A stretch of DNA of 64,000 bases from a virus, in the IMG/VR virus record IMGVR_UViG_3300031772_000003, positions 62,001 through 126,000 of that record. One strand, written 5' to 3'. Within the stretch, counting starts at the first letter, position 1. Every line of letters starts with the position of its first letter. Of the stretch, positions 3,950-64,000 are shown piece after piece. The position numbers were made by a program, and so were the translations under genes. The notes below the pieces were generated by a model. That model was not told the DNA's origin and made no database searches. It was given only the letters and a program-made list of their open reading frames with translations.

Positions 3950-4005
3950 TGTGGCTCCAACGTTGCGATGCGGATCACCAAGTCCTCGTCCTCCCAACCC
4001 TCGTG

Positions 4006-4149
4006 CTAGCGGCGGCGAGGGGTTCGAGAAGAGGTGACGACGTTGGGGTGAGGGCCGCAATGGATGTTGTGGTAGGAGGGACGGGAGCTCTTGGGTTTGT
4101 CCCCGGCGCGAGCGGCTCGGCCCTTCTCGTATGCGCAGCGACGGTTCAC
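4006..4149 (-). CDS. Small basic protein, 47 aa
   Basis: A GTG start at 4149 overlaps the upstream stop as GTGA and has GGAGGA six bases upstream. The product is very basic (many Arg and Lys, ending RTPRRR), with two Cys and three His, and may bind nucleic acid. No homolog is recognised; support is frame, overlap and SD only. Confidence 0.45.
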   Translation of the reverse strand: MNRRCAYEKGRAARAGDKPKSSRPSYHNIHCGPHPNVVTSSRTPRRR

Positions 4150-4298
4150 GAGCCATCCTCCAACGTCAGGATGCCGGCGATGTCGGTGATGTTGATGTCG
4201 CAGAAGGTCCGAACAGATTCTCGGAGAGCGAGACTCCCTTGGCCTCGCTCTCCCGGTCGACTCTCGTCACCAACGAGCGCGTGGCCAAAAGGTGCCAC
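4146..4298 (-). CDS. Small hypothetical protein, 50 aa
   Basis: A GTG start at 4298 lies just after the stop of the upstream gene, but the SD is weak. The C-terminal stretch TFCDINITDIAGILTLEDGS looks like natural protein sequence. It ends with a TGA overlapping the next GTG start. The start is uncertain. Confidence 0.45.
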   Translation of the reverse strand: MAPFGHALVGDESRPGERGQGSLALRESVRTFCDINITDIAGILTLEDGS

Positions 4299-25844: not shown

Positions 25845-26252
25845 CTATCTCTCCTTCTGACTCACGTCAACGATACAGGCATTGCCGGGGATAGTTGCGT
25901 TCAGCAATGCCTTCTTGCCCCCCTCTGGCCTCCGCCGCTCGATGACATCCTTGAGTTCTTGCAGCACAACATCTGCCTCATTCGGTGCCCGTGCTTCGGT
26001 CTGGGCCGCGATCCTGCGAGCCACGGACCTGCTGGGGCAGGGGGCGAGCCCCAGCGTCTCCAGGGATACCTCAGCCTCGGGGATGCCGGCATGGCGGTCG
26101 AACCACCCCGATACATTAAGGACACCTTTGCGCCGGTCCACGATGATGTTGATCCCCATCGCTCCATTAAAGTGGTCAATGATGACGTGAACGAAGCGGC
26201 GTCCGTTTACCTTGGTCTTGAGGACGTAACTGGGGGGGAGTTCAGGTGGCAT
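25845..26252 (-). CDS. Hypothetical protein, 135 aa
   Basis: The ATG at 26252 overlaps the RNA ligase end by 11 bases. Alpha/beta with VHVIIDHFNGAMGINIIVD near the middle. No family recognised. Confidence 0.55.
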   Translation of the reverse strand: MPPELPPSYVLKTKVNGRRFVHVIIDHFNGAMGINIIVDRRKGVLNVSGWFDRHAGIPEAEVSLETLGLAPCPSRSVARRIAAQTEARAPNEADVVLQELKDVIERRRPEGGKKALLNATIPGNACIVDVSQKER

Positions 26253-27222
26253 GCTTTGTCTCTTTCCGCAGGAGATAATCCTCCCCATGCAGCTTGAGGA
26301 TGACCCTACCCACACGCTCATCAAACCGCTCGTGAACAGGTTTGATCACGATGCCCTCGCGCACATGATCGGCACCAGGCATTGTGGTCTTGCCGTTAGC
26401 CAAGGCAGTTAGGTCCGGCGACCAGGGGCCGCGGTAGAGCAAGGGCACCAGGGGTAGCCCGAGCCGCTGCACCAACTCCACCATTGAGTCATAATCAAGG
26501 TAGGTGCGGGTCATTGTGTCCAATGCATCGAACACGGTGAGCAGGTACTCGTCACGACCCGCTCCATACTTGAGGTCCTGCACCTGGCCATAGACCTCGC
26601 CGTAGATGGCAATGTTGGGGGTAGCTTGCAGGCAGTTGGCCAAGGCGTATCGTTCCGCAACTCTCCACCACATGTTGGCGGCATCTTGCTTCTTGATACA
26701 GGTGTGTGAGCCAACCCACAACCTACCATCGCGGTGTAGGAATCTGCTACATGCCCCATGGACTTTCTCGGTGATCACTACCTCCTCCCCAGGCACCAGC
26801 ACCTCACCCCACCTGCGCAGCCCCTCAATGTCGGTGTAGACCGGCAGGAAGCCTGGGTCCTTCTCATTCTCACCCCCCATCGTGGCAGGATCAGGTGGCT
26901 CATACTTAGTAATGCCAAGTATGTCCGCTACATCTTGCCCCTCAATCCATGTGGGTTCAGCAGGGGTCAGCAAGCCCATTGAGAAGATACCGCGAAGCCG
27001 CTTGGCCTTGATCCTGTTGTGTCCGTCAAGGAACGCCCACCTGGGGTCAGCAACGGGGACAAGCGAGTCCACAGGGACGTAGACGGCAAGCCCCCCTTCC
27101 TGGAAGTCACCTGTACGGACAACGAGGGGGTAGTCCCAGACGTGGGTGATCGAGAGGGTATCCGCGTTGGGGTGCTTCATTATGGGGCCAACACGGACGA
27201 CTTGGACGTGGAACTCACTCAT
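26242..27222 (-). CDS. DraRnl-like RNA ligase
   Basis: 326 aa. An N-terminal OB-fold-like domain (about 1-120: HVQVVRVGPIMKHPNADTLS) precedes the ligase domain with motif I TEKVHGACS (Lys153) and the later EVYGQVQDLKYG. This order, OB domain first, is that of the Deinococcus RNA ligase family (Rnl5), which seals 3'-OH/5'-P nicks in RNA duplexes. Complete. Second of three RNA ligases. ATG at 27222 chosen; an extension of 26 codons upstream overlaps the next gene. Confidence 0.87.
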   Translation of the reverse strand: MSEFHVQVVRVGPIMKHPNADTLSITHVWDYPLVVRTGDFQEGGLAVYVPVDSLVPVADPRWAFLDGHNRIKAKRLRGIFSMGLLTPAEPTWIEGQDVADILGITKYEPPDPATMGGENEKDPGFLPVYTDIEGLRRWGEVLVPGEEVVITEKVHGACSRFLHRDGRLWVGSHTCIKKQDAANMWWRVAERYALANCLQATPNIAIYGEVYGQVQDLKYGAGRDEYLLTVFDALDTMTRTYLDYDSMVELVQRLGLPLVPLLYRGPWSPDLTALANGKTTMPGADHVREGIVIKPVHERFDERVGRVILKLHGEDYLLRKETKHAT

Positions 27223-28126
27223 GATCTGTCTTCGCCAGTTTACGGAGCTTATCCAGTGGTACGTAGTACTCGGGGTAGAGCCCACGTAGCCAATTCTCAA
27301 ATGCGATCAACCCCATGCCCATTGGTAGAACATTATGGCATGCCCTATCAGTTAGATTTGATAGGAACATCATGTCCCGGTAACCCTTGGGAGTATCAGC
27401 GGGGTGGTTTTGGCTCGGCGTCGGTGCTCCTGGGTTGCCAGGATGCCCAGACGGTCCTCTAGCGCCACACTTGCAGCTTCCGTACTTGTGCTTGTAGTCC
27501 ACGTGGCAGATAGGGCAGATGTATGTCCCCGGAGGAGGGGCAGGGTGGGGGGTTAGAATGTCGCCTATGTGCCACTTGACCTCCTCGGCGATGTACTCCC
27601 CAAGCCTGCGGAGCTCATGTGCACGATCCTCCGCGGCTTCGGGCAGCAGGGTAGCAGCCTGCGGAATGGAGAGAGGAGGCGGCGATCCCTGAGAACCTGG
27701 ACGGCCGGCTGGCTTCGGTCCTATCGGAGGCCCGTTCACCCCGCCTTTACACACCAGCCCCTCGGAGAGAGTTGACGGCGGAGGTAATGCGGGATCGGGG
27801 GGCTCGATCCGTTCGGTTGGCGGGGGGTTGTAGCCCCGGCGGGCCTTGCTTTCAGGGCTCTCGGGGTAACTACCGGTCATCGCATGCTTCAGCCACACCT
27901 CACGAACCCGCAGCGCCGCGAGCTTGCCGCGCCTGTCGGCGATGCGCCGCCACACTCTCATGGATAAGCCAAGGGGCTTGTCATGAACAATAGTAACACC
28001 CATCTCGAAATCCTGCGTGGCAGTGACCCGAAGGCTGGAGAGGGTTTCAAGTTCGGTCTCAAGGGCGGCGATCCGCTCCCTGGTGTGGTTGAGACGATGC
28101 TCCAAGAACCAATGGCGCAGACTCAT
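27215..28126 (-). CDS. Coiled-coil, Pro-rich, zinc-knuckle protein, 303 aa
   Basis: N-terminal coiled coil (about 1-60), a Pro/Gly-rich linker (95-160) and a zinc site CPICHVDYKHKYGSCKCG (near 208-225), then a C-terminal helical domain. The layout fits an adaptor or scaffold. No family recognised. Overlaps the ligase gene by 8 bases. Confidence 0.55.
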   Translation of the reverse strand: MSLRHWFLEHRLNHTRERIAALETELETLSSLRVTATQDFEMGVTIVHDKPLGLSMRVWRRIADRRGKLAALRVREVWLKHAMTGSYPESPESKARRGYNPPPTERIEPPDPALPPPSTLSEGLVCKGGVNGPPIGPKPAGRPGSQGSPPPLSIPQAATLLPEAAEDRAHELRRLGEYIAEEVKWHIGDILTPHPAPPPGTYICPICHVDYKHKYGSCKCGARGPSGHPGNPGAPTPSQNHPADTPKGYRDMMFLSNLTDRACHNVLPMGMGLIAFENWLRGLYPEYYVPLDKLRKLAKTDHE

Positions 28127-36541: not shown

Positions 36542-37195
36542 TCACGCTGCGAAGTCGCGCAGCTTGAGCTTCCACATCAAGCGTTCGCCCCCACGGGTCA
36601 GGAGCAGCGGCACGGTGCGGGCCACGATGCCCTCTGCCATGCCACCGCAACCACCCTCAGCAGGTCCAATGGCCGTTTGGCCGCCATGCAGGATGTCGAG
36701 AAGCTCTTCGCGGCTCGCAGGCAGCGCTCCAATAGTCCCGAGATACGGCACGACCATCAGGCCCAACTTGTTCGCCACGTCCTGGACATTAGCGGGCTCA
36801 AGCCACCACTCCCCCACCAGCGCGTCGAAGATGCGGAGGGCCATGTTGGGGCGGTAGATGCCACCCCTCTGGATACCTGCCCCGTAGCCCTCGCCGTAGA
36901 TCGTGACAGCGGTGCAGGCACAATCAGGAAACGCGGCCCGAACCCTGTCGGCAGGGAGCGTGTTCGCCAGATACTCAAAGAACTTGGCAGGCAGTTGGGC
37001 AGTGTCCGTCCTGCCCGTGTAAGCAACCGAACCATCGTCGCGCAGGCAAACACGGACGTTGGTGCCGTCAATCTTCTCCGTGACGGCCCACGAACGGGGC
37101 AGGGCGAACTCGGGCAGGCGCAATGCCTTGGGCACAACCTTAAAACGCTCGTCGCGGTCGTAGAGGGTCTCGATCTTTGGATACTCAGTATCCAC
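36542..37195 (-). CDS. Rnl2-type RNA ligase
   Basis: 217 aa. Motif I TEKIDGTNVRV (Lys41), then GRTDTAQL, then GYGAGIQRGG-type motif III/IIIa, GIVARTVP (motif IV) and MWKLKL (motif V) match the T4 Rnl2/RNA_ligase family. It is short, essentially a nucleotidyltransferase core. Seals nicks in RNA or RNA/DNA; third RNA ligase in the window, giving three unrelated-subfamily ligases. GTG at 37195 with GGAG seven bases upstream. Confidence 0.86.
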   Translation of the reverse strand: MDTEYPKIETLYDRDERFKVVPKALRLPEFALPRSWAVTEKIDGTNVRVCLRDDGSVAYTGRTDTAQLPAKFFEYLANTLPADRVRAAFPDCACTAVTIYGEGYGAGIQRGGIYRPNMALRIFDALVGEWWLEPANVQDVANKLGLMVVPYLGTIGALPASREELLDILHGGQTAIGPAEGGCGGMAEGIVARTVPLLLTRGGERLMWKLKLRDFAA

Positions 37196-37267
37196 TGTAT
37201 CTCTCCTATCAAACCCCTCCCCCAGCCCCAGCCCGCACGGATTCTCACCGTGGGCGTTGGCCAGCAC

Positions 37268-39098: not shown

Positions 39099-39263
39099 GG
39101 GGGTGGGGGGACTCGAACCCCATCCTCGCAGCCCCACACCCATGGTGGCGAAACCGGTAGCTAGTCGGCCCCACCACAACAGGATGAAGGTGACAGGCAG
39201 GTAGCTAATCCTCCTGTGCCTCTACAAGGGGCTGCGCGCTCTAACCCTATGAGCTACACCCCC
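39099..39263 (-). tRNA. tRNA-like gene with 100-nt anticodon-loop insertion
   Basis: Minus strand: 7-bp acceptor GGGGGTG (39257-39263) pairs with CACCCCC (39099-39105); then TA, D stem GCTC/GAGC around ATAGGGTTA, anticodon stem CGCAG (39232-39236) / CTGCG (39127-39131), 4-nt variable region, T loop TTCGAGT between GGGG and CCCC. The anticodon loop is 100 nt, whereas 7 is normal, so the sequence could carry an intron or be a fused relic. The stem could extend by CCCC/GGGG. Anticodon unassigned; no encoded CCA. Motif copy 7 is 33 bases upstream. Confidence 0.55.
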
Positions 39264-39829: not shown

Positions 39830-39846
39830 CACCCCTAGAATCAGGT
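39830..39846 (-). promoter_or_regulatory. Upstream motif copy 8
   Basis: Minus strand ACCTGATTCTAGGGGTG, one mismatch; its TGA is the stop of the upstream small gene. Confidence 0.55.
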
Positions 39847-46985: not shown

Positions 46986-47686
46986 GCCTTGCCCCTCATG
47001 TATTCTAGCGACCTCTGCCGAATCAGCTTATCACACGCCTTTTGCTTCGCCCTACCCGACGTTGACATGCTACCAGGTCGTGGGTGCCGATACACGTAGG
47101 TCACCACGGGTACATGCTTAGTCGCACAGCCCGTCTCCCCAAGTAGGACGGCTATCTGATAGTCTACCGCTGAGGAAATCGAGGTATCGAGACCCCGGCT
47201 TTTGCGGTAAAAATCCAGGGACCAGAACTGCTGACACCCCGCTCCCCACCACCCACAGTTACAAATCGCGCTCCATAGGGTAGTACCAGGAGGGAGGGGT
47301 TTGCTCCACCCGTGCCTATCGGTTCCCATAAACTTCCAGGCCGTCCATACATAACCGACAGACGTATCTTGAAAGGGGGGTACACCCACGGACAAGCTAT
47401 TAGACATCAGGGTATCATCACTGCCCAAGAACGTCACCACGTCGCCTGTGGCAGCGTCCAGGGCAGCTTTGAGGGCGGCGGCACAACCGCCGTGGGGGAG
47501 CTTGAGCAGGGTAACAGGCTGGCCCGCTATGAGGCTTTCCACAACGTCGGCAGTATCATCCGTCGAGCCGTCATCGGCGATGATCAACTCCCACTGCTTA
47601 TGGGTCTGGGCGAACACAGAGCGGATCGCCTCAGCTATATAGGGGGCAGTGTTGTAACATGGAACCAACACGCTTACCACTTTCAT
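46982..47686 (-). CDS. GT2-family glycosyltransferase
   Basis: 234 aa. SVLVPCYNTAPYIAEAIRSV and ADDGSTDDTADVVE are the GT2 nucleotide-sugar motif; GDVVTFLGSDDTLM supplies the DxD-like site. Transfers a sugar from a nucleotide donor, probably inverting. ATG overlaps the giant gene's stop (ATGA). Confidence 0.9.
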   Translation of the reverse strand: MKVVSVLVPCYNTAPYIAEAIRSVFAQTHKQWELIIADDGSTDDTADVVESLIAGQPVTLLKLPHGGCAAALKAALDAATGDVVTFLGSDDTLMSNSLSVGVPPFQDTSVGYVWTAWKFMGTDRHGWSKPLPPGTTLWSAICNCGWWGAGCQQFWSLDFYRKSRGLDTSISSAVDYQIAVLLGETGCATKHVPVVTYVYRHPRPGSMSTSGRAKQKACDKLIRQRSLEYMRGKA

Positions 47687-50600
47687 GCTCTCGCTCTGAT
47701 ATTCACAGGCTGCCATTCCCCTGATGGAAGCTGAATGCCGGTGACATGGACGGAACGGCCTTTGAGCAATCGAATCTCCTGCTCCTCCTCACCCAAGGAT
47801 GGTTGGCAGCGGGCGAACAGCGTCCCCTTCCAGTCAACACTCTTTGATGGAACCGACGCCCGGAGGACGACGCAGGGGCCCCCATGCCCCCAATGGCACT
47901 CCGCTTTGTCCTCCTCGTCAGCCCAGTAGACTCCAATCCCCCGTGTCCGGATGTGCTGCCACACCGTAGCGGGATCAACCGGGTCAACGTCGATGGCCCG
48001 GTACAGCACCAGGGGGTCGGACATCCCAGCAATGCCCTCAAGAGCATCGTCCAGAGCCCGCTCGATCTCTTCCCGAACCATCTTCTCCGCACGAGCATCC
48101 ACCTCCACATCCGTCGCGTCGTCCCCAAGATCCTCCCGGGCGAGGTCAGCATAATTGTTTATCTCGTCCACGGAGTCGTGCAGCACCGCTGCAACCATCT
48201 CCTCCCGCTCCTCGTCGGTCAGTTCAGGGGCGAGGCTATAGGTGCTGGGCTGGAATGACTCCGCGACCTGCTGCCCCTGGTCAACCACCCGTTTCACAAC
48301 GCCAGCCCGACGTACAGTAGGGGGTCGTCGCTTACTTGCTTGCCTTGCCATATCATCATTCACCCATGCAGGAGCTACGTCATAATCCTGCTCTCGCCAA
48401 ATATCCGCACGGTGGTTCCCATCATTGATCACGACACTACCATCCACCTCACGAGTAACTACGATAGGAGGGAAGCCCCTACCAAAACTCCGCTGAAGCT
48501 CATCCTCTGGGTAGGACTCAACCTCAGAGCGAGCCTGCAGCTCACGGGCGAGTAGTTCCACGTCGCTGTCATCATACCCATCATCGGGGTCCCACGGCAA
48601 GAAATCGCGCCAGTTATCAAACCCAGAGCGATGATATTGCGTCTCCCCCGCGGTCCACCTCTCCAGCATCTCCTCAGCCTGCTCCATAAAAACAGGGTCA
48701 AGCTCTCCCTCGCCCTTACGTAGGGCTTCTGCACCCTGCTTCTCCACACGCTGCGGCTTCAGGTCAGCTAGGTCAACCATAGCGGTATAGACAAAACGGT
48801 CTGGCTTAACACCCACGAATTGAGCCACCGTCTGCTGCGTCCACTTACCGTAATTGTCCGTAGCATCCCAATCATGCTCCGGCGCTTTTCCCTCGTAGTC
48901 ATCCACGGGCTGACCAAGAGGGGGCACCGCAGCTTCAAGCAGGCTCTCGGTTACTTGCTCCCCCTGCTCGACCAACTTCTGGATCTGGTCATACCCGTTC
49001 TCGACCACAACCTCAGCGACCGGGTGCTGGTCAATGTACCTTCGGGCATTCACCAGCTTGCCCGTGTGCTTCAACGCCCGCAACGGCTCACGCGACGTGA
49101 TCGCTCCCAACTGAATCATCTGTGTGGTTACGTCCGCGAGCTTCCCCTTGTCCTTACCTACCAACACCCTCCTTCGAACTTCCTCTCCTTCCACGTCCAC
49201 CTCATCCCCAACAAGGAAACCACTACGTTCCTGGGGGTTCTTGAGGATCACACGAAAGGTCTTGCCGTCTGGGGTCTTGGCAGTAACTTGCTCGAACGGG
49301 AAGGGAGCTAGATCAGGATGATCTATGCCTACTTGTTCCTGTATCCCGGACTCGTCCCGCTCGACCAGCTTCTGAATCTGCTCATGTGCGTTCTTCAACA
49401 GTGCGGCAAGTCCGAAGTGTTGGGGCTTGACCCGGTACATCTCCTCCCACGTCACCCACCTATGGCCCTCCGTCTCCCAACCATGTCCAGGCTCGAACTC
49501 CTCCGGGACGATGCCGAGGAAATTGGAGTACTGGAACCCCTCAGTAGTATAGACATAACTCGGCACTAGCTCCATCGAGCCCGTGTACCCCGTCTCCTCA
49601 ATGAACTCGCGTCGAGCCGCGGTCTCCGGTGCCTCGTCCTCGATGCGACCCCCCCAGATGCCCCAAGTGTGGGGCTCGTTGACCTCGGAGCTACGGTAGG
49701 CCAGCAGGAACCGGCCCGTGGAGGTGCAGAGGGGGAGGATGCCTGCACCTTGATCGCCCCAGAAATGGCGGCCAGCAGTATTCGCGTAGTAGGTGCCGTG
49801 GGGGGTAAGAGCTTCGATAAGGGCACCGGCATTGACACAGCGGTCCAGATAATCCACCGCGTCCTCCTGGGACAGGTAGCGATGGTGGTGGGTTATGTTA
49901 GAGTCCCACCACTCAAACTCCACCTCTGGGCAGTCATCAGGAGATTGGCCAGCCACAAGCTCCCGGAGGGTCTGGAGAGCGGCCACGGCAAATGGTGCTT
50001 TGCTGCTGCCTATCTGTACCTTGAACCCTGAACCATCGTCTCCGGGACGGATACGGATGCTCCCCGCATCCAGGGCAGCCTGGAAGCCATCCTTGCCATA
50101 CTTACGCTCAGCCCTAGCGACATGGTGTAGCCCACCACCCCAGGCATTGGTGCCGTGGTCAAACGAACCATCAGACCATACCCATGCACCATAGGGACCA
50201 ATCTCGTAGGGGCTGAGGCGGGCTTCCTGCACACTCTCCTCCTGCACCTGCCCCGCGATCTGAATCCACTGCCGCACCAGGTTCTTCATCTCCCACACAG
50301 TCATCGTCTCACCGGGAACCTCGGACTCAACACCGACCTCTGTAGTTAGCTCCACCGTAAAATGTGCGGAGGTGTGGGCAAGAAGGTTCAAGAGGGTGAG
50401 GTATGCAGCATTGGACGTAAGCCCCGCCATTGGGGGGGCACAACGCACGAACAAAGTAAGGTCCTCTAAATTGACAAGGATGCCCCCATGCTCAATACCC
50501 AAGCGGATGCCGGCGGCGTCATCCCGATCATCATCCGGGACAGCGGGCGCATACTTGTCATAAGCCGCCTTTGCATGGAAATAGCCGGTCTCAATCTCCC

Positions 50601-53600
50601 CATCACCCCATATCCACGTCCCATTCTCAGCCACGTCCTCAATGCTCGCGTAGGCTTCGGAGAGAGATTCCACCACACTACTAGCCTTTATCCGTAGCTC
50701 ACGGAGCCTGTCCTCAAGGGGGGTCCAATCTACCGCCTGACCAGCGATCACCCGTATATCCACGTCAGACTCCCCATATGGCCTCTCAAACTGGCCTGTC
50801 TCCTGATTTAGCTTTGCACCACCACCGGCAGGTTGGCGATGATTAGATAGTCTAATCTCTAGCCCATCCTCTCCATCAAACAACTCAAATTGTAGATACC
50901 ATGAGTCTGCGAAATCATGACAGTTATCTTGCCCGCCTAAGTGAATCAAACCCACAGACTCACACCGCTGAATCACCTCATCTGCTGCCAGAAGCAGGGC
51001 ATCTCTATATGCAAGAGCCGCTTGGTAAGTCTCCTCCGCCTCCTGCTTCTTTGCAGCATCCTCTTCGTCTTGCTCGCTATCACGTAATGCAGCATCATAG
51101 AGACTTGCCTCCCACGCCTCGTCCGAATCGTAGTCTCGCCTTGGGAAGGCATCCAGGAGATCGGGTAAGTACTGCCTTAGCTCATCCGGCCAGTCATCCC
51201 CTATAACCTCACACACCACCCTGTCCAACTGCCCCACGTCATCCACGACTTTGCTCTGCTTGAACCAGGCACGGAACTCCGGGGTGTCCGTGGCGAGCCT
51301 GGGGTCGGTAGCCTCCGTCAGGGCTTCTGCCGTCCAACCGGGTTGAAATGGGATACCAGCCGCGGGCGCTATGCGGGGGAAGTCCATGTAGAAGTCATCG
51401 GGCAACCCCGCCCGCTTCGCATGCCTCTTGGCCAGCGCCAGGAGCTTAGCGGCCTTGCGCTCACACTCCTCAGCATCCTTTGGGTAGCCCAGCCGCTTCC
51501 ACTCCTCCACCTCATCCTGTTCCTTGATCGCCATCAAGTAGTAGTGCGTCGCAAGAGAGTAGGACGGAATCCTGTAAGCCCCCTCACTCAGCGCCATGTC
51601 CAGCGAGCCCACGGTGCGGGCATCCACCACGAACCGCCCTTTGCCCATCAAGAACTGCACCGCCAGTTCATACTGAGCCTTCCAGTCAGCCCGCTGCCGA
51701 TCCTGCCAATGGGTGAGAAAGTCCCGGTCAGTCCGCTCGATTGCGGAGTAACCCGGCATGCTCCTGCCCTGGAAGTAGGAGAGGTCCTGCCACTGCTCCC
51801 CCAATTTGATCTCAGTCTTCTTGCCATCTTTCCCACTGAACGTCACGGTGCCAATGGTGAACTCTTTGCCTGTCAAGGAGCCGTCACCCACGTATCGTGT
51901 GATAGCTTCTGGCTTCAGGTAGGCAACCGTTGCGTGGGCGTGGTACTCGGGGTGCGTGTCGGTACACTTGAGGTTATCCGAGACGAGCTTGTTGAGCCGG
52001 TCCAAGCCGGCACTCTCGATGTCGTACTTCAACACAGCGGCGTTATCCGAGGATTCGCTAGGAGGGAAGGATGAAAGCTTGCCAAACTTGATCGTGACCC
52101 GCTCCTCGCCCTTGAGGGGCTTCTTCACTTCCTCCGGGTCGGAGGTGTGCAGCCCGTACTTTATCGTAATGTGGGCCTCTGTCTCCCGACCATCCCCCAT
52201 CAAGTCTTCGTCCTTGACCCGCATACCCTGCGCGAGTATGCCCTCCTTAGCCCCACCAATGAGGTCGGCTTGCAGGCAACCATAATCGTGGGTCTCCTCA
52301 TTTAGAGCCGCGTCCAACGCACCGATGGTGCGAGCCTCAAACGTAACGATCTTCTTGGGATTAAATGCGTCCTTTAAGTCGCGCAGCAACGCCTCGGGAA
52401 TGGGCCGATAGCGCTGTGCCTCCGGGGGCACTACAGAGACCCAACCAGTCCGCGCATCGTACCTGCCTTTGTAGAGTTTACCTGCTACTCCTGGACCAAA
52501 CTCTATGTCGTGTGATCCAGGAAGGTTGATCCCCTCGTGATCCCTAACATTGATTACCAAACCCCCCGGCCCAGTCCACATCCAGATGGTATGGATAAGA
52601 CTTTCTTCATCTTCGTCCTCTCCCCCCTGATCGTGCCCGATCTGAAAATAGAGTTCAGCGGCTTGATCCGCAGGGTCCTGATCCTCATAGGGATCAAAAT
52701 TGGGGTAAATAGTAGATCCCCGCTCGGTGGCTTTTGCAACTTCCCGCTTCCACGATACCGGCCTCTTGGCCTCACTCAGCATGCGGTCTAGCCCCCCTAC
52801 TGTGGCCTCAGCGGGCACCCCTCGGGGCTCGGGCCTGGCCCGACTTGGGTCATAAGCGGCGGGTCCCGCTGTAGACAAGCGCTGGAACTCCTGCTTCGCC
52901 AGTTCCATGATCTGGTCTACCAGAGCCTTCGCCTCCGGATCGCCCTCCACGGACTGGTACAGGACCCGGTACTTCCGGGTATCCTCCCACCGGGCCTCCG
53001 GCCCCTTCTCCCGCACCAGTTCCCAGTACTCAGCCGCCAGTTCCGTGGCATACGCCCGCTGCTCCCCCGGCCATGAGAAGTAGTAGCCGGCATTCCTGGA
53101 GCCGGCGTAGGTCGTGGGCCAGTCCCCTAAGTCCGTCCGTGCCTTGTCTTCGATGGCGTGGTAGGTCTCGTGCGTCATGATGCCAGCAAACTCTTCCACG
53201 AATCTCCTATCGGACACCCAAAGATAAATTGCGCCCTCACCGGGCGAGTACATGCCCCCACTTCCAGCCCCGGAATCAGCCCCCGGCGTATACGTGAGTC
53301 CGCCCCCATGCGTCTTGATGTGGACCCGCATCCCAAACAGGTCCCAGCGAAACTTGTCCAGCACCTTCGGGTCTTTGGGCGTAGGAAGCCCCGATGCTTC
53401 CAAGTCCTGGATTATGATGTCGATGGTCCGCTGGCCGATGACCTCACGTAGAGTAACGGTATAGTCCACACCTACCGGAATCTTCCCATTGAGTTCCTGC
53501 GCCCATCTGCGGGCCTTCTGATAGATCAATGCTGGGACCAAAGATTCGACCAGCAAGTCCAGTTCGCCCACGGTGTGGGCATCAGCGGACATCGCATCCT

Positions 53601-56600
53601 CAATCACAGGGGCCTCGCCTGCCGGGGTGACGGAGTCCAGGGCGATCTCCTGAATGCCGGCCCTACCGGGCTGCTTGTCTGGGTGCCACGAGCCTGTCCG
53701 CCTAACGCGCCACACCCGCGTCGGCGTCGCAGAGGCCAAACTCGCCAAGGGCTTGCCCTTGAGGACCCGGAGGAGCTCTGCCCTGTCATAACGGGTGAGG
53801 GCCCGGAGGATTTGCTTGCCGGCCATCGGCACCGCGGGGTAATCCCCACCAAGTGCGAGGCGGAGAACCCTGGGGGTAACGTGCCGCTTAGCAAAGTCGA
53901 GGAGCCAATCAAGGCTCTTGAGAGTCTCGGCAGGGGTGTAGCCCATGTCGGGATGTACCCGCACGAGCTCGGCATAATGCTCCGGCCTCTCTTGAACCAT
54001 CTCGATCCACAGGAGAAGGCCCCCCACATCATCCTCATCAGGGTCCACGTCGGTCAAGGCGGACCCTGGCACCTCGAAGACATAACCCCATGGCTCCTCC
54101 TCCACAGGTATGCCGGGGTGGTTAGCGTAGGAAACGGCCTCCCCAAAAGACGGAGTCAGGTAGACCGCTTCCCGCCGAGCCTGTTGCCATCCCCGTTCCC
54201 TGCTCCCCCCTAACGGCTTGAGGCCCTCCCGGACAATGGCATCCGCTGCGGCTTGAGTGGGGCACCCGTGGTAGTAGGCCGTGGCCCGCATCGGCTCATC
54301 GGGGGTTGGGGCCTCCATGAGGGATTCAACGAGGTGGGCCAAGCTGCCGATGGACTCCTCAACACCCACGTCATATTCCTCATCATTCAGCTTTGCCCCA
54401 TAGTAGCCAGGCTTCTCGTAATACTGGTGGGTCCAGTAGTCCAGCATGTCCTCTGGTACTGTGTCGGCCCGTTGCCACCGACCGCCGATGAGAATATCGT
54501 ACTGGCTGGGCTCAAGCACTCGTTCCTCATAGTCGCCAGTGTCCACATATCTATCATTTGGGAATGCCCCACACTGTTGCAGCCTATCGTCCAAGAAATG
54601 AGCGGGGATACGGACGGCGACCCTACTCCGCGCGAGGGACGCATCATCGAGCCAATTAGCCTCGGTAGTAACATAGAACCTGTAGGTTCCCTCCTCATCG
54701 GGGTCCTGATCCGCCCACCTGTTCTCCTCCCGGGGGATGTCCACAAAAGAGCCGGGCATATCACCGGGATGGGCGGTGTAGAGGCCCTGCCGCAACAACG
54801 CTCGCATATCACCTTTGGGATGATAGCGGTAGTAATAGCTTCCCCTGTGCTGCTGATGTGCAACCGTGTCCTCGGCCAAGGACTCCTCAGCCCTACCCAC
54901 GAGCAAGGAGGACATGGGGACTCGTTCCCAGCCGTCTTGTGGGTAAAGGTTCTGCTCCGGGCCCTGGATCAGGTCCTTCCGCCACATCCTATCCGGCCTC
55001 AACACCCCGTGGTGAGCAATGACAATAGGGCTCAGGGCAATAAGCTCCTGCTTCTGCTCCGGTGTCATCAGGGTAAGCAGACACTTCGTGTTCGCTGCCA
55101 AGGGGTTCTCCGGGTTATCCTGCTCAGCCATCTGCCACAACCAGTCAGGGCATGTCTGCCCGTACTGCCCATCCCACGAAAGAATATAGGACACCTCGGA
55201 GTCATCAGGCTCAACATCCATGAGAGCGGAGCCGGACACCCCAAACACGTATCCATACCGCTCGTCACTATTCGAGGCATAGTCCGCGGCGACCCCAAAA
55301 TCAGGTGTCAAGTACACCCTACCACGAGTTGGGCAGGCTGCGGGTCCACCCATCTTATCCCACGGTTGACTATACGATCTATCGGGTTGAATCCCAGACC
55401 TCGCAATCGCCCGTGCCTTCCGGGTCGTGGGGCAGCCGTGGTAGTACATCTTCTCGGCCTGCTCCTGTGACGGAGGAGGGGATTCCTGAAGAGCCTCTGA
55501 GAGCAGGGAGGACAAGGGGTACGCTTTCCAACCAGACTGATCCCAATAGTGCCCCTCACCAGGATGACGCAAGCGCCAGACCCGTGTAGGCACCACAGGC
55601 CCCAGATGGGCCACGGTCAATGGCCTCTCCCGCATCACCTCCTGCTTTTGCTCCGGGGTCATTCGCCGGAGGATTTCACGGGGATCGGCCATGTGGGGGC
55701 TACCAGGATCGACCGCAGCAGCTATATCATGGAGCCAATCGGGGGTATCATCACCCCACAGGAGGCTGCCCACCCTATCCTCATCGGGCTCCACGTCCTG
55801 CAGGGCCGAACCGGGCACCTCGAAGATGTAGCCATCAGGCGGGTAGTCATCGGGGATTCGCGGGTCATGCCCGGACGTAAGAGCATATTCCACAGCAACC
55901 CCAAAATCAGGTGTGAGGTACACGCGCCCCTGCATCGGCTCCACCCGCGGAGACCAATGACGACTCGGTAACTGATCCGGTCTGATCCCAAATCGAGCGA
56001 TCTCATTGGCCCTTCTTGCGCTGGAACAACCATGGTAATAGGTCTGCTGGGTCTGTGTCTCAGAAGGGGGCGGGGCCTCGATGAGCATGGCCCGGTCAAG
56101 GGACCCAATAGATTCGCCTACCAACTCAAACAATAACTCCCCACCCGTTCCTCTTACAGGTGCCCCCTGCATCTCAGGGAACCGCTGCTCGATTGCCTCT
56201 ACAGCATGATGCACCTTCAGTTTCGCCCCACGATCCCACCTCTCCCACATACCATAGAACTCAATTCCCCACTCCGCCTCCACAGCATCAGGTGGGTAGA
56301 AGCAACCCCGCTGAGATATGATTTCCTGCTGATCCACATCACACAGCAGCCCACCTCCCTCAGTGTAGCCCAAGACATCCCCACGCTTGTGTCCCGCCCT
56401 CCGAAGCAACCAATCCAGGAGTATTGGCACATGATCTTCCACTGTGGTCATCGTGACCCTGTAGGTGTCCTCATCGCTACCCTCCTCATCATACTCCTCA
56501 TCATCTTCTATCCCCCACTCCCGCGGCTCCCCTTTGACAGACACCCGCAACAATGTTAGCAGGGCTTTACTGCCGTCCATTGTCAAGAGCCCAGTCTCGC

Positions 56601-56955
56601 GTGACCATACAAAGTAGACCTCGCCCAGCTTGCGGGAGAGCAGGGCTTCCATGGTCGGTCGCTGCCGGTAGCGCCGCTCCACCTCCGTAGCCGCAGCGTG
56701 CGCCCGCTCGTAGTCCCATCCCTGAAGCATCAGAGATCGCTCATAAGTTTCGTGGACCAGCACAGCGGGCATCTCAACGGGCTGGACGCCGTTGTCGATC
56801 CAGATTTCGTCTTGGGGGATGAAGGCGTAGCGGCAGCCATTCCCGCCCTGAGAGAAATCCAAGTCGTAGGTATCGCGGACGGCCCTGCCGTCCACGATCC
56901 AGACTTTGAGGCCCTGTGTCGTGCCCCAGTAATGGATGTAGGGGGAGGGCAGCAT
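47683..56955 (-). CDS. Giant polyvalent protein/polyprotein, 3090 aa
   Basis: ATG at 56955 has GAGGG upstream. Modules in order: a zincin-like HETYERS segment (about 70-110); ART-like copies A (306-475) and B (503-690) with YYHGC and VYLTPDFG; another ART-like region (about 700-830); ART-like copy C (894-1090); HETYH zincin (1262-1266); a domain of unknown fold; 2H phosphoesterase (HIT 1595, HAT 1674); helical domains; duplicated YG-W-DG modules (2101-2380); NUDIX box (2434-2456); ParB-like NDGNHRA (about 2850); C-terminal R-S-E type ART (2900-3090). Most junctions carry LxE|A-like sites, several preceded by VGSLD. Probably a packaged effector polyprotein matured by a prohead protease; untested. 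Confidence 0.8.
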   Translation of the reverse strand: MLPSPYIHYWGTTQGLKVWIVDGRAVRDTYDLDFSQGGNGCRYAFIPQDEIWIDNGVQPVEMPAVLVHETYERSLMLQGWDYERAHAAATEVERRYRQRPTMEALLSRKLGEVYFVWSRETGLLTMDGSKALLTLLRVSVKGEPREWGIEDDEEYDEEGSDEDTYRVTMTTVEDHVPILLDWLLRRAGHKRGDVLGYTEGGGLLCDVDQQEIISQRGCFYPPDAVEAEWGIEFYGMWERWDRGAKLKVHHAVEAIEQRFPEMQGAPVRGTGGELLFELVGESIGSLDRAMLIEAPPPSETQTQQTYYHGCSSARRANEIARFGIRPDQLPSRHWSPRVEPMQGRVYLTPDFGVAVEYALTSGHDPRIPDDYPPDGYIFEVPGSALQDVEPDEDRVGSLLWGDDTPDWLHDIAAAVDPGSPHMADPREILRRMTPEQKQEVMRERPLTVAHLGPVVPTRVWRLRHPGEGHYWDQSGWKAYPLSSLLSEALQESPPPSQEQAEKMYYHGCPTTRKARAIARSGIQPDRSYSQPWDKMGGPAACPTRGRVYLTPDFGVAADYASNSDERYGYVFGVSGSALMDVEPDDSEVSYILSWDGQYGQTCPDWLWQMAEQDNPENPLAANTKCLLTLMTPEQKQELIALSPIVIAHHGVLRPDRMWRKDLIQGPEQNLYPQDGWERVPMSSLLVGRAEESLAEDTVAHQQHRGSYYYRYHPKGDMRALLRQGLYTAHPGDMPGSFVDIPREENRWADQDPDEEGTYRFYVTTEANWLDDASLARSRVAVRIPAHFLDDRLQQCGAFPNDRYVDTGDYEERVLEPSQYDILIGGRWQRADTVPEDMLDYWTHQYYEKPGYYGAKLNDEEYDVGVEESIGSLAHLVESLMEAPTPDEPMRATAYYHGCPTQAAADAIVREGLKPLGGSRERGWQQARREAVYLTPSFGEAVSYANHPGIPVEEEPWGYVFEVPGSALTDVDPDEDDVGGLLLWIEMVQERPEHYAELVRVHPDMGYTPAETLKSLDWLLDFAKRHVTPRVLRLALGGDYPAVPMAGKQILRALTRYDRAELLRVLKGKPLASLASATPTRVWRVRRTGSWHPDKQPGRAGIQEIALDSVTPAGEAPVIEDAMSADAHTVGELDLLVESLVPALIYQKARRWAQELNGKIPVGVDYTVTLREVIGQRTIDIIIQDLEASGLPTPKDPKVLDKFRWDLFGMRVHIKTHGGGLTYTPGADSGAGSGGMYSPGEGAIYLWVSDRRFVEEFAGIMTHETYHAIEDKARTDLGDWPTTYAGSRNAGYYFSWPGEQRAYATELAAEYWELVREKGPEARWEDTRKYRVLYQSVEGDPEAKALVDQIMELAKQEFQRLSTAGPAAYDPSRARPEPRGVPAEATVGGLDRMLSEAKRPVSWKREVAKATERGSTIYPNFDPYEDQDPADQAAELYFQIGHDQGGEDEDEESLIHTIWMWTGPGGLVINVRDHEGINLPGSHDIEFGPGVAGKLYKGRYDARTGWVSVVPPEAQRYRPIPEALLRDLKDAFNPKKIVTFEARTIGALDAALNEETHDYGCLQADLIGGAKEGILAQGMRVKDEDLMGDGRETEAHITIKYGLHTSDPEEVKKPLKGEERVTIKFGKLSSFPPSESSDNAAVLKYDIESAGLDRLNKLVSDNLKCTDTHPEYHAHATVAYLKPEAITRYVGDGSLTGKEFTIGTVTFSGKDGKKTEIKLGEQWQDLSYFQGRSMPGYSAIERTDRDFLTHWQDRQRADWKAQYELAVQFLMGKGRFVVDARTVGSLDMALSEGAYRIPSYSLATHYYLMAIKEQDEVEEWKRLGYPKDAEECERKAAKLLALAKRHAKRAGLPDDFYMDFPRIAPAAGIPFQPGWTAEALTEATDPRLATDTPEFRAWFKQSKVVDDVGQLDRVVCEVIGDDWPDELRQYLPDLLDAFPRRDYDSDEAWEASLYDAALRDSEQDEEDAAKKQEAEETYQAALAYRDALLLAADEVIQRCESVGLIHLGGQDNCHDFADSWYLQFELFDGEDGLEIRLSNHRQPAGGGAKLNQETGQFERPYGESDVDIRVIAGQAVDWTPLEDRLRELRIKASSVVESLSEAYASIEDVAENGTWIWGDGEIETGYFHAKAAYDKYAPAVPDDDRDDAAGIRLGIEHGGILVNLEDLTLFVRCAPPMAGLTSNAAYLTLLNLLAHTSAHFTVELTTEVGVESEVPGETMTVWEMKNLVRQWIQIAGQVQEESVQEARLSPYEIGPYGAWVWSDGSFDHGTNAWGGGLHHVARAERKYGKDGFQAALDAGSIRIRPGDDGSGFKVQIGSSKAPFAVAALQTLRELVAGQSPDDCPEVEFEWWDSNITHHHRYLSQEDAVDYLDRCVNAGALIEALTPHGTYYANTAGRHFWGDQGAGILPLCTSTGRFLLAYRSSEVNEPHTWGIWGGRIEDEAPETAARREFIEETGYTGSMELVPSYVYTTEGFQYSNFLGIVPEEFEPGHGWETEGHRWVTWEEMYRVKPQHFGLAALLKNAHEQIQKLVERDESGIQEQVGIDHPDLAPFPFEQVTAKTPDGKTFRVILKNPQERSGFLVGDEVDVEGEEVRRRVLVGKDKGKLADVTTQMIQLGAITSREPLRALKHTGKLVNARRYIDQHPVAEVVVENGYDQIQKLVEQGEQVTESLLEAAVPPLGQPVDDYEGKAPEHDWDATDNYGKWTQQTVAQFVGVKPDRFVYTAMVDLADLKPQRVEKQGAEALRKGEGELDPVFMEQAEEMLERWTAGETQYHRSGFDNWRDFLPWDPDDGYDDSDVELLARELQARSEVESYPEDELQRSFGRGFPPIVVTREVDGSVVINDGNHRADIWREQDYDVAPAWVNDDMARQASKRRPPTVRRAGVVKRVVDQGQQVAESFQPSTYSLAPELTDEEREEMVAAVLHDSVDEINNYADLAREDLGDDATDVEVDARAEKMVREEIERALDDALEGIAGMSDPLVLYRAIDVDPVDPATVWQHIRTRGIGVYWADEEDKAECHWGHGGPCVVLRASVPSKSVDWKGTLFARCQPSLGEEEQEIRLLKGRSVHVTGIQLPSGEWQPVNIRARA

Positions 56956-56965
56956 GTCGTTGCCC

Positions 56966-57295
56966 TCAATTAGGTGGGCCACTACGCATCTGCGTAGCAA
57001 TGAGCAACCGAAGTGATTCTATTTCCTTTGTCTGACTCTTGATCGCGTCCTTAATCTCTTTGAGGCTTTCATGAACCACCGTAGCTATGACCTCTGCTGC
57101 GACGGCCTTATGTTCTGCTACGGTCAAGCGCGCACTCACTTGTGACGACACGGCCCATGTAAAGGCGTAGGCCCCGCAAGGAAGAACGATGAGGAAGCCG
57201 AGCGCGGTGAGGAACGCCCATAAAGGCGTCCTACCCTTGACGCAAGCGGTGCGGTGCTGCTCACAAGTCTCGGTTGTCACAGGCGTAGGCATCAT
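56966..57295 (-). CDS. Membrane protein with coiled coil, 109 aa
   Basis: One membrane segment (LWAFLTALGFLIVLPCGAYA) after a short Cys-containing N terminus, then a C-terminal coiled coil. Spanin- or holin-like, but too small for certainty. It is just upstream of the giant gene and may be co-expressed. SD is a G run. Confidence 0.5.
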   Translation of the reverse strand: MMPTPVTTETCEQHRTACVKGRTPLWAFLTALGFLIVLPCGAYAFTWAVSSQVSARLTVAEHKAVAAEVIATVVHESLKEIKDAIKSQTKEIESLRLLIATQMRSGPPN

Positions 57296-60151: not shown

Positions 60152-61423
60152 CTACGGCTCGGGAGCGGCGACAAGGGATGCCCACCGGATGATGTAGTCA
60201 GCGATGCCGTTGAGGATGCTCACCGTCCCATCGTTCCTAATGAAGTGATAGACCCCCTCCGCCAGCACCCCCATGGAGACCCTGGGGAGGTTGCAGTGGG
60301 CACGGAAGCTCGGGGGCAGATCGACCTCGACCAGGCATAGCTCATCCAGAGGGAGTTGCAGGCTATAGCGGCGGACCCCCATCGCTATCCCCGGGCCCCC
60401 CTTGCGCCGGTTGGGGAGCAATACGTAGGTGGGTTCCTCCTCCAAGTCCCCCTCCACCAAAGCGGGCAGCGTAGCCCCAAAGCGCACATCTATCGGGGCG
60501 ACACCCGCCGTGATTGCGAAGCCGCGCCGCTTGGTCTTCGAGCGCGAGGGGATCATGCCGCCCACGACTTGGCTGGGGTCCATGAATACATGAAACCGCT
60601 TCCAATCCGGCTTTTCGATAGGCTCACCACTACCCGTCGCGTACACCATCCCGGACCCCTCACCATCGGTCCAGGTGAAGCTCTTTTGGAAATACTGCGC
60701 CGCGATCTCCAGGGCGTCCGCAAACCCGATCCCGATCACGGTGAACCCCGGCTGCTCGTAGACTTTCGGGGGCGTTGCGTCTGTGTCCGTGTAGGTGCCG
60801 CGGGTAGGAACGAAGCTGAAGCCCCTGTTCCACAGCACCCAGGCTAACTGGGCGTTCCGGGGATCATTCTGGGCATTGGTATCCTCATCAATATAGGCAG
60901 TGAGCACCGCCATCGGGGTGTGCTTGAAGTGCTGGAGGAATCGGTACAGGCTCGCCTCAAAAACAGAGGCTTTCCCCATTATGCGGCCCACAGCCCGTTC
61001 GACTAACGGGTCCACAGCACTCTCCTTCGATTCCCTCGTGGATTCATTCATTGCGTCCCGATTCTTCCACCTCGTGTTGAGGTCCAGGACCGCCGCTGCT
61101 GTCACCGCATCGATGCGGCGGGTATCCGTGGGCCATGTCTTGGGTGTATAACGAACCGTGGCCCCACCAATCAACGAGGTGACATCGGCCCTGCCACCCT
61201 GCGTCATCTTACCGGCCCGGCCCAATTCGCTGCGTGGTGGCGGGAAGTAGAGATAGTCACCGACCCGGACATCCGCAAGTGCGACACGGGGCAGGGCCTG
61301 TAGGGCCGCCCGCATCTGCTTCGCCTCAGCCCGGAGATCGAGGTGTTGGGTCTCGGAGCGCAGACGCTCGACATTGAGCCCATGCCCCTCTGGAGGATGC
61401 AGCGACGGTCTCCACGTCTTCAC
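60152..61423 (-). CDS. DUF3293-like multidomain protein, 423 aa
   Basis: Residues 155-255 carry VLTAYIDEDTNAQNDPRNAQ, PTRGTY and FTVIGIGFADALEIAAQYFQ, the order of DUF3293 (unknown function). The N-terminal 120 residues are a basic domain, the C-terminal 150 a beta-rich one. It may be an injected or virion protein as it sits upstream of the polyprotein. GTG overlaps the previous stop. Confidence 0.55.
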   Translation of the reverse strand: MKTWRPSLHPPEGHGLNVERLRSETQHLDLRAEAKQMRAALQALPRVALADVRVGDYLYFPPPRSELGRAGKMTQGGRADVTSLIGGATVRYTPKTWPTDTRRIDAVTAAAVLDLNTRWKNRDAMNESTRESKESAVDPLVERAVGRIMGKASVFEASLYRFLQHFKHTPMAVLTAYIDEDTNAQNDPRNAQLAWVLWNRGFSFVPTRGTYTDTDATPPKVYEQPGFTVIGIGFADALEIAAQYFQKSFTWTDGEGSGMVYATGSGEPIEKPDWKRFHVFMDPSQVVGGMIPSRSKTKRRGFAITAGVAPIDVRFGATLPALVEGDLEEEPTYVLLPNRRKGGPGIAMGVRRYSLQLPLDELCLVEVDLPPSFRAHCNLPRVSMGVLAEGVYHFIRNDGTVSILNGIADYIIRWASLVAAPEP

Positions 61424-62384: not shown

Positions 62385-62467
62385 ACTAGCCCCACTTTAG
62401 ATGGGGCGGGATGCATCTCACACACCCCCTTTCCTTAGACCACTCAGAATGATGTGCTATATCCTTC

Positions 62468-62484
62468 CACCCCTAGAATCAAGT
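62468..62484 (-). promoter_or_regulatory. Upstream motif copy 9
   Basis: Perfect ACTTGATTCTAGGGGTG on the minus strand, 83 bases before the tRNA-like structure. Its TGA is in frame with, and 30 bases after, the previous gene's TAA. Confidence 0.6.
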
Positions 62485-62508
62485 GAGGTAGGGCCAAGTA
62501 GTGGAAGT

Positions 62509-63228
62509 TTAACAGCATGGCATCCAACGGGCCCTGCGCCGACGCGCGATGCCACGAGCCACGAAGGCCAACTCGTCGCAAATCGTCACGAGCCTAGTGG
62601 TCCTGTCGAGGCCGTTAGGCGTTGTGGCCCTATCCGCCTCCTCGCAAGGGTCCCACAAGGCGCAGCGCCTGATAAAAAAGCTCGTAGACTGGCTACACAT
62701 GAAGCGGCGGTACGTTCGCTCCAACTGCTCGTCGGTCATCGCATCAATATCGGCGGGGTCAATCGTAGGAGCACCGAAGATGGCATATTCAGCATTGGCC
62801 AGCAGGTAACGGTAGGAATAACCCCACAAGCCGCAGACCCTGGCAGCGAGGTCGCCCAAACGGTCCCGCCAGCCCTCGGGGAGATGCACTGGCTCGCCCG
62901 CATAGACATCGGGGATACGGCGGACCCTGATCTTGTAGCCAGCGGCCACCCACTCCTCCAGAGGGGAGGCCCACAGCCCATCCGCGTCGGCGCTGGCACA
63001 CCATATCCGCTCCGGGTCCGGTGCCTCGTTCAGGATCGGCTCGTGCTCGCGCCTCACCACGAGCCAGCCCGCATCGTATGCCTCGCGGATGTGCCGCTCC
63101 TCCACAGCAGTCATCGCGTGGGACCTGTCGCCTCCGGTGAAAAATGTGATGATGTCCCCCAGGATGCCGCTGCGGCGTACTCCCAGAGCATCGCCTGTCA
63201 GGATAGTGGTGTTGAATGGGCTAGGCAC
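62509..63228 (-). CDS. Permuted-papain-like (YiiX-type) protein, 239 aa
   Basis: ILTGDALGVRRSG followed by SHAMTAVEERHIREAY gives the order of permuted NlpC/P60 enzymes (His before Cys); CSQSTSFFIRRC near residue 185 offers the Cys. Such enzymes are amidases or peptidases, often cell-wall or lipid active. The GTG at 63228 has GGGGAT before it; the longer frame overlaps the caspase gene. Catalytic assignment tentative. Confidence 0.55.
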   Translation of the reverse strand: MPSPFNTTILTGDALGVRRSGILGDIITFFTGGDRSHAMTAVEERHIREAYDAGWLVVRREHEPILNEAPDPERIWCASADADGLWASPLEEWVAAGYKIRVRRIPDVYAGEPVHLPEGWRDRLGDLAARVCGLWGYSYRYLLANAEYAIFGAPTIDPADIDAMTDEQLERTYRRFMCSQSTSFFIRRCALWDPCEEADRATTPNGLDRTTRLVTICDELAFVARGIARRRRARWMPCC

Positions 63229-63229
63229 G

Positions 63230-64000
63230 TCAAATCCCCAGGAGGGTGCGGCAGGTCTGGTCGATCTTGCCTCCCTCGGCCTGTGGCTCCTGGGCATAGT
63301 GCGCGGCACGTAGGGCCACGCGAGCCGCCGCGACGACATCACAAAACCGCTTGCCAAGGCCAAGGGACAGTTGTTCGAGGAAGTAGTGGGTCATTGCCCC
63401 ACAGGGCCGCCCGTTCACCTCCGTATCCGCCGCGGTCTGATCGGACTTACAGCCTGACACGTAGGCTAGTGGGGCAGTGGTCAGATTCGGAGTGGCACCA
63501 CTGGCGGGCTTCTTGGGTCCGAACAGGACGTTCCAGAAGTCAGTGAGGATCGAGAGGATGCCCCTCGGTGCGAAGCCGAGCTTGCGGGCAGCGGCAAGGC
63601 TCCACGCAATGTCAGGAGGCACGGGATACGACCTCGGAACAATGATGAGGGGGTTGGCGAGGGGCATATTCCGCATGAGATCACTGCTTGAGCAGGAATC
63701 CGACATCACGAATACGTTGACCCCAGGAGGGACCCGCGAGAAGTAGTCCGCGAACTCCTTGTCCCTGACCGCTGTGCCATCGATGTCATTCCAAGCGAAC
63801 GGCCTAAGCGCGTACACCTCATCCATTCCGTCCAACTCTTGCCTCGGATTACGGGTCACTACCTGTGCCCCATGACCCGACTGCGCGTAGAAGATGCTAT
63901 CCCCCGGTTCGACATCCACGAGCCACGCCATACGCTTGGCCCACTCCTCCTTAACTGCTCTATCATCCAGCAGGAGACGGAGATCAGCCTCCCTCCATCC
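63230..64000 (-). CDS. Caspase-like (C14) peptidase, start beyond window
   Basis: The frame is open to the right edge, so the N terminus is outside. AWLVDVEPGDSIFYAQSGHG is the catalytic His block and VFVMSDSCSSSD the Cys block of caspase-like C14 peptidases (metacaspase type). The C-terminal 120 residues include a helical region. It may act in host killing, or mature the polyprotein, though caspase families cut after basic or acidic residues rather than LxE sites. Confidence 0.8.
   Translation of the reverse strand, partial: GWREADLRLLLDDRAVKEEWAKRMAWLVDVEPGDSIFYAQSGHGAQVVTRNPRQELDGMDEVYALRPFAWNDIDGTAVRDKEFADYFSRVPPGVNVFVMSDSCSSSDLMRNMPLANPLIIVPRSYPVPPDIAWSLAAARKLGFAPRGILSILTDFWNVLFGPKKPASGATPNLTTAPLAYVSGCKSDQTAADTEVNGRPCGAMTHYFLEQLSLGLGKRFCDVVAAARVALRAAHYAQEPQAEGGKIDQTCRTLLGI

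Follow-up and report, generated by a model that had tools for sequence, protein, structure and literature searches.

A natural tRNA-like element with a structured anticodon-arm insert in a contractile-tailed phage, and short structured inserts in other phage tRNA genes

The tmRNA (ssrA) combines a tRNA acceptor stem and T arm with a longer RNA that is swapped in for the anticodon arm, and in this respect it resembles the element described here, which resides in a 64,000-nt stretch of phage DNA (hereafter the window; positions 62001-126000 in a virus record of 163,716 bases). A tmRNA, however, has no D stem; within its roughly 350 nt there are pseudoknots and a reading frame for the tag. In engineered tRNA scaffolds for recombinant RNA, a foreign structured RNA is placed on an extended anticodon stem; the window element follows the same plan, but it is natural and phage-borne. 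The group I introns of bacterial tRNAs are likewise anticodon-arm inserts, although they are larger and possess a catalytic core. According to a 2014 review, all phage introns known by then were located in protein genes and none in tRNAs (PMC3984707). Archaeal bulge-helix-bulge introns are also short inserts in the anticodon arm. In their defining motif, two 3-nt bulges flank a helix of 4 bp (PMC4090602), whereas the corresponding helix of the window element is continuous. Lastly, YrlA (RF02553) is similar in that a tRNA-like domain is attached to another functional stem, and this domain has been proposed to act as a competitive inhibitor of anticodon nuclease (PMC7790460).

A tRNA body with an insert in its anticodon arm

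The first-pass annotation had described the locus as a tRNA-like gene with a 100-nt anticodon loop. The tRNA part of this description was borne out by a covariance-model search: on the minus strand, positions 39263-39098 (166 nt counting base 73) matched the tRNA model RF00005 with 38.7 bits against a gathering score of 29 (E 5e-7), and cmscan aligned all 71 of 71 model positions around a 99-nt insert. Because of this insert, a scan of the whole window against Rfam misses the element. In its intron mode (-i), ARAGORN reported the element as the sole tRNA in the entire 163.7-kb record, with a score of 113.8. When the record was shuffled 25 times with its dinucleotide content preserved (4.1 Mb in total), ARAGORN gave five hits, the best of which scored 102. 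The tRNA-like element is therefore real and not a product of chance.

All four stems had been said to pair, and this holds for the acceptor (7/7), D (4/4) and anticodon (5/5) stems, while the T stem forms four of its five pairs. Specifically, the 5′ acceptor strand GGGGGUG (39257-39263) pairs over 7 bp with CACCCCC (39099-39105), with pair probabilities of 0.94-1.0 and cmscan support for the 3′ strand. The D arm, GCUC-AUAGGGUUA-GAGC (39238-39254), was recovered by ARAGORN, cmscan and folding alike, and the T arm, UGGGG-UUCGAGU-CCCCC (39106-39122), by ARAGORN and cmscan. The bases of the tertiary elbow are present, namely U8, A14, G18G19, the G53-C61 pair and UUCGA. Imperfections are the U49-C65 mismatch in the T stem, the U15/A48 combination, a variable region of 4 nt and a U at position 73 (39098), after which no CCA is encoded.

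The insert lies between the 5′ and 3′ strands of the canonical anticodon stem of 5 bp and, drawn in this way, comprises 100 nt (39132-39231); other placements of the exon ends give 91 nt (ARAGORN) or 99 nt (cmscan). It does not form the open loop of the earlier description. In the predicted fold, the CGCAG/CUGCG stem is prolonged by CCCC/GGGG into nine unbroken pairs, eight of which are G-C: the 5′ strand CGCAGCCCC (39228-39236) pairs with the 3′ strand GGGGCUGCG (39135-39127) with probabilities of 0.97-1.0. This was the longest anticodon stem among the inserted tRNAs examined, and four additional Watson-Crick pairs arose in only 0.6% of shuffled inserts (p about 0.006). The small hairpins noted inside the insert were also recovered, two being predicted in the minimum free energy structure. 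Hairpin 1 (39187-39222) has the apical loop AUUAGCUA at 39209-39202 and pair probabilities of 0.75-0.97, and hairpin 2 (39137-39186) has a 12-bp upper stem with probabilities of 0.98-1.0 and the loop ACUAGCUAC at 39165-39157. The insert is thus predicted to be a three-way junction of the 9-bp stem and two hairpins. Both apical loops contain the self-complementary motif UAGCUA, and such a loop pair was found in 0.2% of shuffled inserts (p about 0.002). Since UAGCUA is self-complementary, base pairing of the loops would be possible both within one molecule and in a dimer. Within a single molecule, such a contact is plausible, though the unequal lengths of the two hairpins leave it uncertain. An 11-nt near-repeat, GAYUAGCUACC, is present within the insert. 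The folding z-score was -2.64 for the whole RNA and -1.61 for the insert alone, modestly better than shuffles.

Whether a decoding tRNA could be obtained from the element was judged by enumerating ways of drawing the 18-nt anticodon arm (positions 26-43) from its two ends. With the natural CGCAG/CUGCG stem, U33 occurred in no register. The only register with U33 required a shift of the stem by one pair, giving CUGUGGG with the anticodon GUG; correspondingly, ARAGORN removed 91 nt to arrive at a 75-nt tRNA-His(GUG). The bacterial identity pair of tRNA-His is G-1:C73, and this pair is absent in the GUG register, which has C at position -1 and U at position 73. The best anticodon-arm restoration score of the element was 6/8. 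Neither before nor after splicing did it present a 7-nt loop with U33, a purine at position 37 and matching identity, and we conclude that it is unable to read codons.

Known RNA classes were also considered. The earlier statement that the insert is too short for a group I intron was upheld, as there was no Rfam match to such introns and an insert of at most 100 nt compares with a P3-P8 catalytic core of usually at least 200 nt. The continuous 9-bp helix of the predicted fold contains no bulge-helix-bulge. Neither Rfam nor ARAGORN gave a tmRNA match for the element, and YrlA was dismissed because its model RF02553 did not match and the phage lacks a Ro60 (TROVE) gene. No second tRNA scored inside the insert, and an antisense RNA was not favored, as the longest complementarity noticed between the insert and the phage was 12 nt. 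The suggestion of two decayed tRNAs fell away: the halves of the element pair perfectly, and a perfect 7-bp acceptor stem together with a 9-bp anticodon helix is not expected from unrelated pieces.

The phage encodes a contractile tail with sheath and baseplate, a head protease, a portal and a PurZ-like adenylosuccinate synthetase, and its GC content is ∼60%. No close relatives of it were found in the collections searched. On its own strand, the listed ORFs leave a gap of 509 nt around the element, and no ORF of at least 80 aa spans the element. Its 5′ end is preceded at 25 nt by the copy ACUUGAUUCUAGGGGUGAGAGGG (39313-39289, minus strand) of a 26-nt box, ACUUGAUUCUAGGGGUGGGAGGAGAG, which occurs 17 times in the record, in every case on the minus strand and for the most part a short distance upstream of ORFs. 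Further copies in the window are at 39844, 38294, 37485, 35347, 34960 and 6205, and the others are elsewhere in the record. With at most one mismatch, the box core was found at 16 places in the record and at none in shuffles. The box was not found in viral contigs, and genome contigs gave eight single matches, which is chance level. Its probable role is that of a promoter or leader box specific to this phage. Downstream, the next gene on the same strand (38974-38291) begins 123 nt from the element; between them there is no further box, and no obvious terminator was seen on reading the sequence.

The three RNA ligases that had been attributed to the same phage were confirmed on the minus strand at 2855-4156 (T4 Rnl1 type; PF09511, 31.9 bits; PHROG 562), 26242-27300 (PF09414, 93.5 bits) and 36542-37267 (PF09414, 59.6 bits), whereas neither an RtcB nor a Ro60 gene was found. 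Big phages are known to encode RNA ligases in various combinations, for which the usual explanation is the repair of cut tRNAs (PMC7824862), and their presence here is therefore weak evidence for splicing. As to other genes, a PurZ-like 2-aminoadenylosuccinate synthetase was recognized at L003:13044-14336(-), with identical coordinates in the record (PHROG 1211, E 6e-74), and the PurZ-like gene may point to 2-aminoadenine in the phage DNA. A radical-SAM protein at L004:3684-6272(-) contains an HNH endonuclease region in its interior, which may be an intein, and a 3,105-aa ORF at window positions 47683-57000(-) has no relatives in viral contigs.

Structured inserts in other phage tRNA genes

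Viral contigs were scanned for a D arm followed by 72 to 102 nt and a T arm, which gave at least 120 stretches. Among the matches listed there were 124 places, 36 of them without an ordinary tRNA, and several were single tRNAs with 30-70 extra nt. When the scan specified a long insert and a T arm similar to those of the window element, it returned tandem tRNA arrays, each place with at least one ordinary tRNA. Genome searches with RF00005 overlook inserted tRNAs, and their negatives are thus uninformative on inserts.

One kind of insert recurred. It is located between tRNA positions 28 and 29, usually follows the 5′-exon sequence ACG, ends with (G)GUUACUU and is ∼57 nt long. A directed scan for this 28|29 class returned 36 stretches with 34 distinct members and several different anticodons, such as L100:10404-10481(-) in a tRNA-Asn, L295:2330-2407(-) and L296:905-984(+) besides 31 others. 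Removal of the insert restored a 5-bp stem with U33 and a purine at position 37 (score 8/8) in 27 of the 34 members, compared with 0.75% of letter shuffles. A covariance model built from 13 members produced 46 matches in 51 loci, some of them beyond the search pattern and likewise within tRNA genes; an earlier model, R1, with a poor alignment and no base pairs was left out. In the alignment of the 46 matches, all 11 of 11 pairs showed changes on both sides, with 74 such cells as opposed to 21 ± 4 in shuffles (0/500) and at most 16 in slid controls; this alignment had been fitted to the structure, and the unfitted alignment of 13 sequences was already in favor of that structure. The fold consists of an 8-bp helix, an internal loop in which a U-rich strand is opposite UGGCG, and a variable hairpin. 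We found no Rfam entry for the class. Judged from these sequences, it is a conserved structured RNA that would plausibly have to be spliced out in bacteria.

Within nine whole phage records, the matches were confined to one short region per record. Model R3 gave a single match in 725 kb of other phage loci, and this was an already known member. There were no matches in five bacterial genomes and none in 200 genomes of one phylum, where stricter filters applied and an empty answer says little. In archaea and animals, RtcB is the ligase that acts in tRNA splicing. An RtcB gene was present in seven of 13 larger records with inserts of this class or relatives ending in GGUUAUC, as compared to three of 29 comparable tRNA-bearing records without them (Fisher p 0.005; 0.057 when four seemingly related phages are counted once). 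In record G015, RtcB (62408-63562) and a 28|29 insert (60700-60770) are about 1.6 kb apart. The link between RtcB and these inserts is an association only.

The window element and the 28|29 class have in common that both are structured anticodon-arm inserts in phage tRNAs. In contrast to the class, the window element differs in insert length and position and has no arm that is restored on removal. Unfiltered scores against the class models were 3.7 bits (R2) and 1.9 bits (R3), whereas members scored 19-80 bits, and the motifs GUUACUU, GGUUAU and CAGCAA are all absent. The window element is not a member of this class.

Other inserted tRNAs were encountered as well. Inserts ending in GGUUAUC rather than GUUACUU, several per phage, were seen in L082 (three inserted tRNAs), L103 (two) and L081; they were missed by R2 and R3 and are likely relatives of the 28|29 class. 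A second class may be represented by anticodon-stem inserts in L087, L032, L110, L182 and L064, which have CAGCAA or CUGCAA about 10-25 nt before the 3′ end and in most cases leave good anticodon arms on removal. At L086:4972-5120(+), an apparently complete tRNA is nested in the anticodon loop of another. Two phage tRNAs, L125:1926-2058(+) and 155-288(+), have an intact anticodon arm and an insert of ∼50 nt in the variable region, and one L125 tRNA has an apparent UUA anticodon that would read the UAA stop codon. Finally, the anticodon stem of a phage tRNA in L118 is extended to 7 bp and followed by hairpins, with no restorable anticodon loop; on the predicted structures, this is the closest companion of the window element.

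Possible roles of the window element

Our preferred explanation, to which we give a little less than even confidence, is that the window element is a natural tRNA-scaffolded non-coding RNA, probably a stable one. A tRNA-framed RNA without a decoding function is favored because there is no identity-valid arm, no bulge-helix-bulge and no Rfam intron, and because it is the sole tRNA-like gene in the record, the element is not part of a decoding set. Its place in a gap between ORFs, the box in front of it and the similar plan of the L118 tRNA also speak for this explanation, whereas the imperfections of the tRNA body, the modest folding of the insert alone and the lack of an obvious terminator speak against it. 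Transcription would start from the promoter-like box just upstream. Going by the known requirements of the enzymes, RNase P and the tRNA 3′-end enzymes could trim the transcript, since the acceptor stem, the D/T elbow and the 7-bp acceptor register are intact. The predicted structure would then replace the anticodon loop by the 9-bp stem leading into the three-way junction, and the hairpins may touch or dimerize via their complementary UAGCUA loops. Most likely, the insert domain would be displayed by a tRNA body that resists nucleases, or the RNA would keep a tRNA-binding protein of the host occupied; speculatively, this protein might be a tRNA-targeting defense enzyme. A decoy for anticodon nucleases, as the first-pass annotation had proposed, is possible; such nucleases normally require the anticodon, which the window element lacks. 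No relatives of the element were found by BLASTn against phages, by DNA patterns of the insert and the box in viral contigs, or through the neighboring and giant proteins, and very near records are perhaps absent from these collections. Its fold is accordingly a prediction from a single sequence.

Three other explanations were weighed against a tRNA-framed RNA. The element could be a pre-tRNA with an unrecognized intron of 91-100 nt, with a nuclease or the RNA itself making the cuts and one of the three phage RNA ligases joining the ends. This is unlikely, even though the three ligases, the removable-looking short non-group-I inserts of other phage tRNAs and the tRNA-His(GUG) proposed by ARAGORN speak for it: U33 is missing from all CGCAG/CUGCG registers, G-1:C73 is absent from the GUG reading, both splice sites would be buried in the 9-bp helix, and the insert resembles neither the 28|29 class nor a bulge-helix-bulge intron. 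The earlier idea of a new kind of intron is hence weakened for this locus and better supported for the 28|29 inserts. Rather unlikely, too, is a functionless, degenerate tRNA gene whose anticodon arm was broken up when a sequence was duplicated or inserted, perhaps another tRNA as in L086. The modest tRNA score, the mismatches, U73, the near-repeat in the insert and the nested tRNAs of other phages would fit such decay. However, the acceptor, anticodon-stem and elbow pairs are intact, the stem is longer rather than broken, and no second tRNA scores within the insert; on the predicted fold, the 9-bp helix and the complementary loops would each be unlikely for a random or decayed sequence.

We consider it improbable that, instead of being a free RNA, the element is a tRNA-shaped leader through whose processing or binding the downstream gene (38974-38291) is controlled. 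The proximity of this gene and the lack of an intervening box or obvious terminator are in agreement with a leader, but there was no above-threshold Rfam match to a riboswitch or T-box, and a nearby SAM-Chlorobi-like match is far below the cut-off and upstream of the tRNA-like element. A broader proposal, which we regard as quite unlikely, is that large phages contain several small non-group-I tRNA intron families with an unknown excision route and sealing by phage ligases, RtcB for the 28|29 class and T4-type ligases here. The window element would then be a larger, separate member that uses its three-way junction and kissing loops for excision or recognition.

Short structured inserts in phage tRNA genes are common in the surveyed contigs and are overlooked by default annotation, as standard tRNA finders miss tRNAs with inserts of 30-100 nt unless introns are allowed. 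If short non-group-I tRNA introns were indeed spliced outside archaea and eukaryotes, this would be a new process. Should the window element be a free RNA, it would mirror in nature the tRNA scaffold devised in the laboratory and open a way to study what phages do with the tRNA shape beyond decoding, for example decoying tRNA-targeting defenses.
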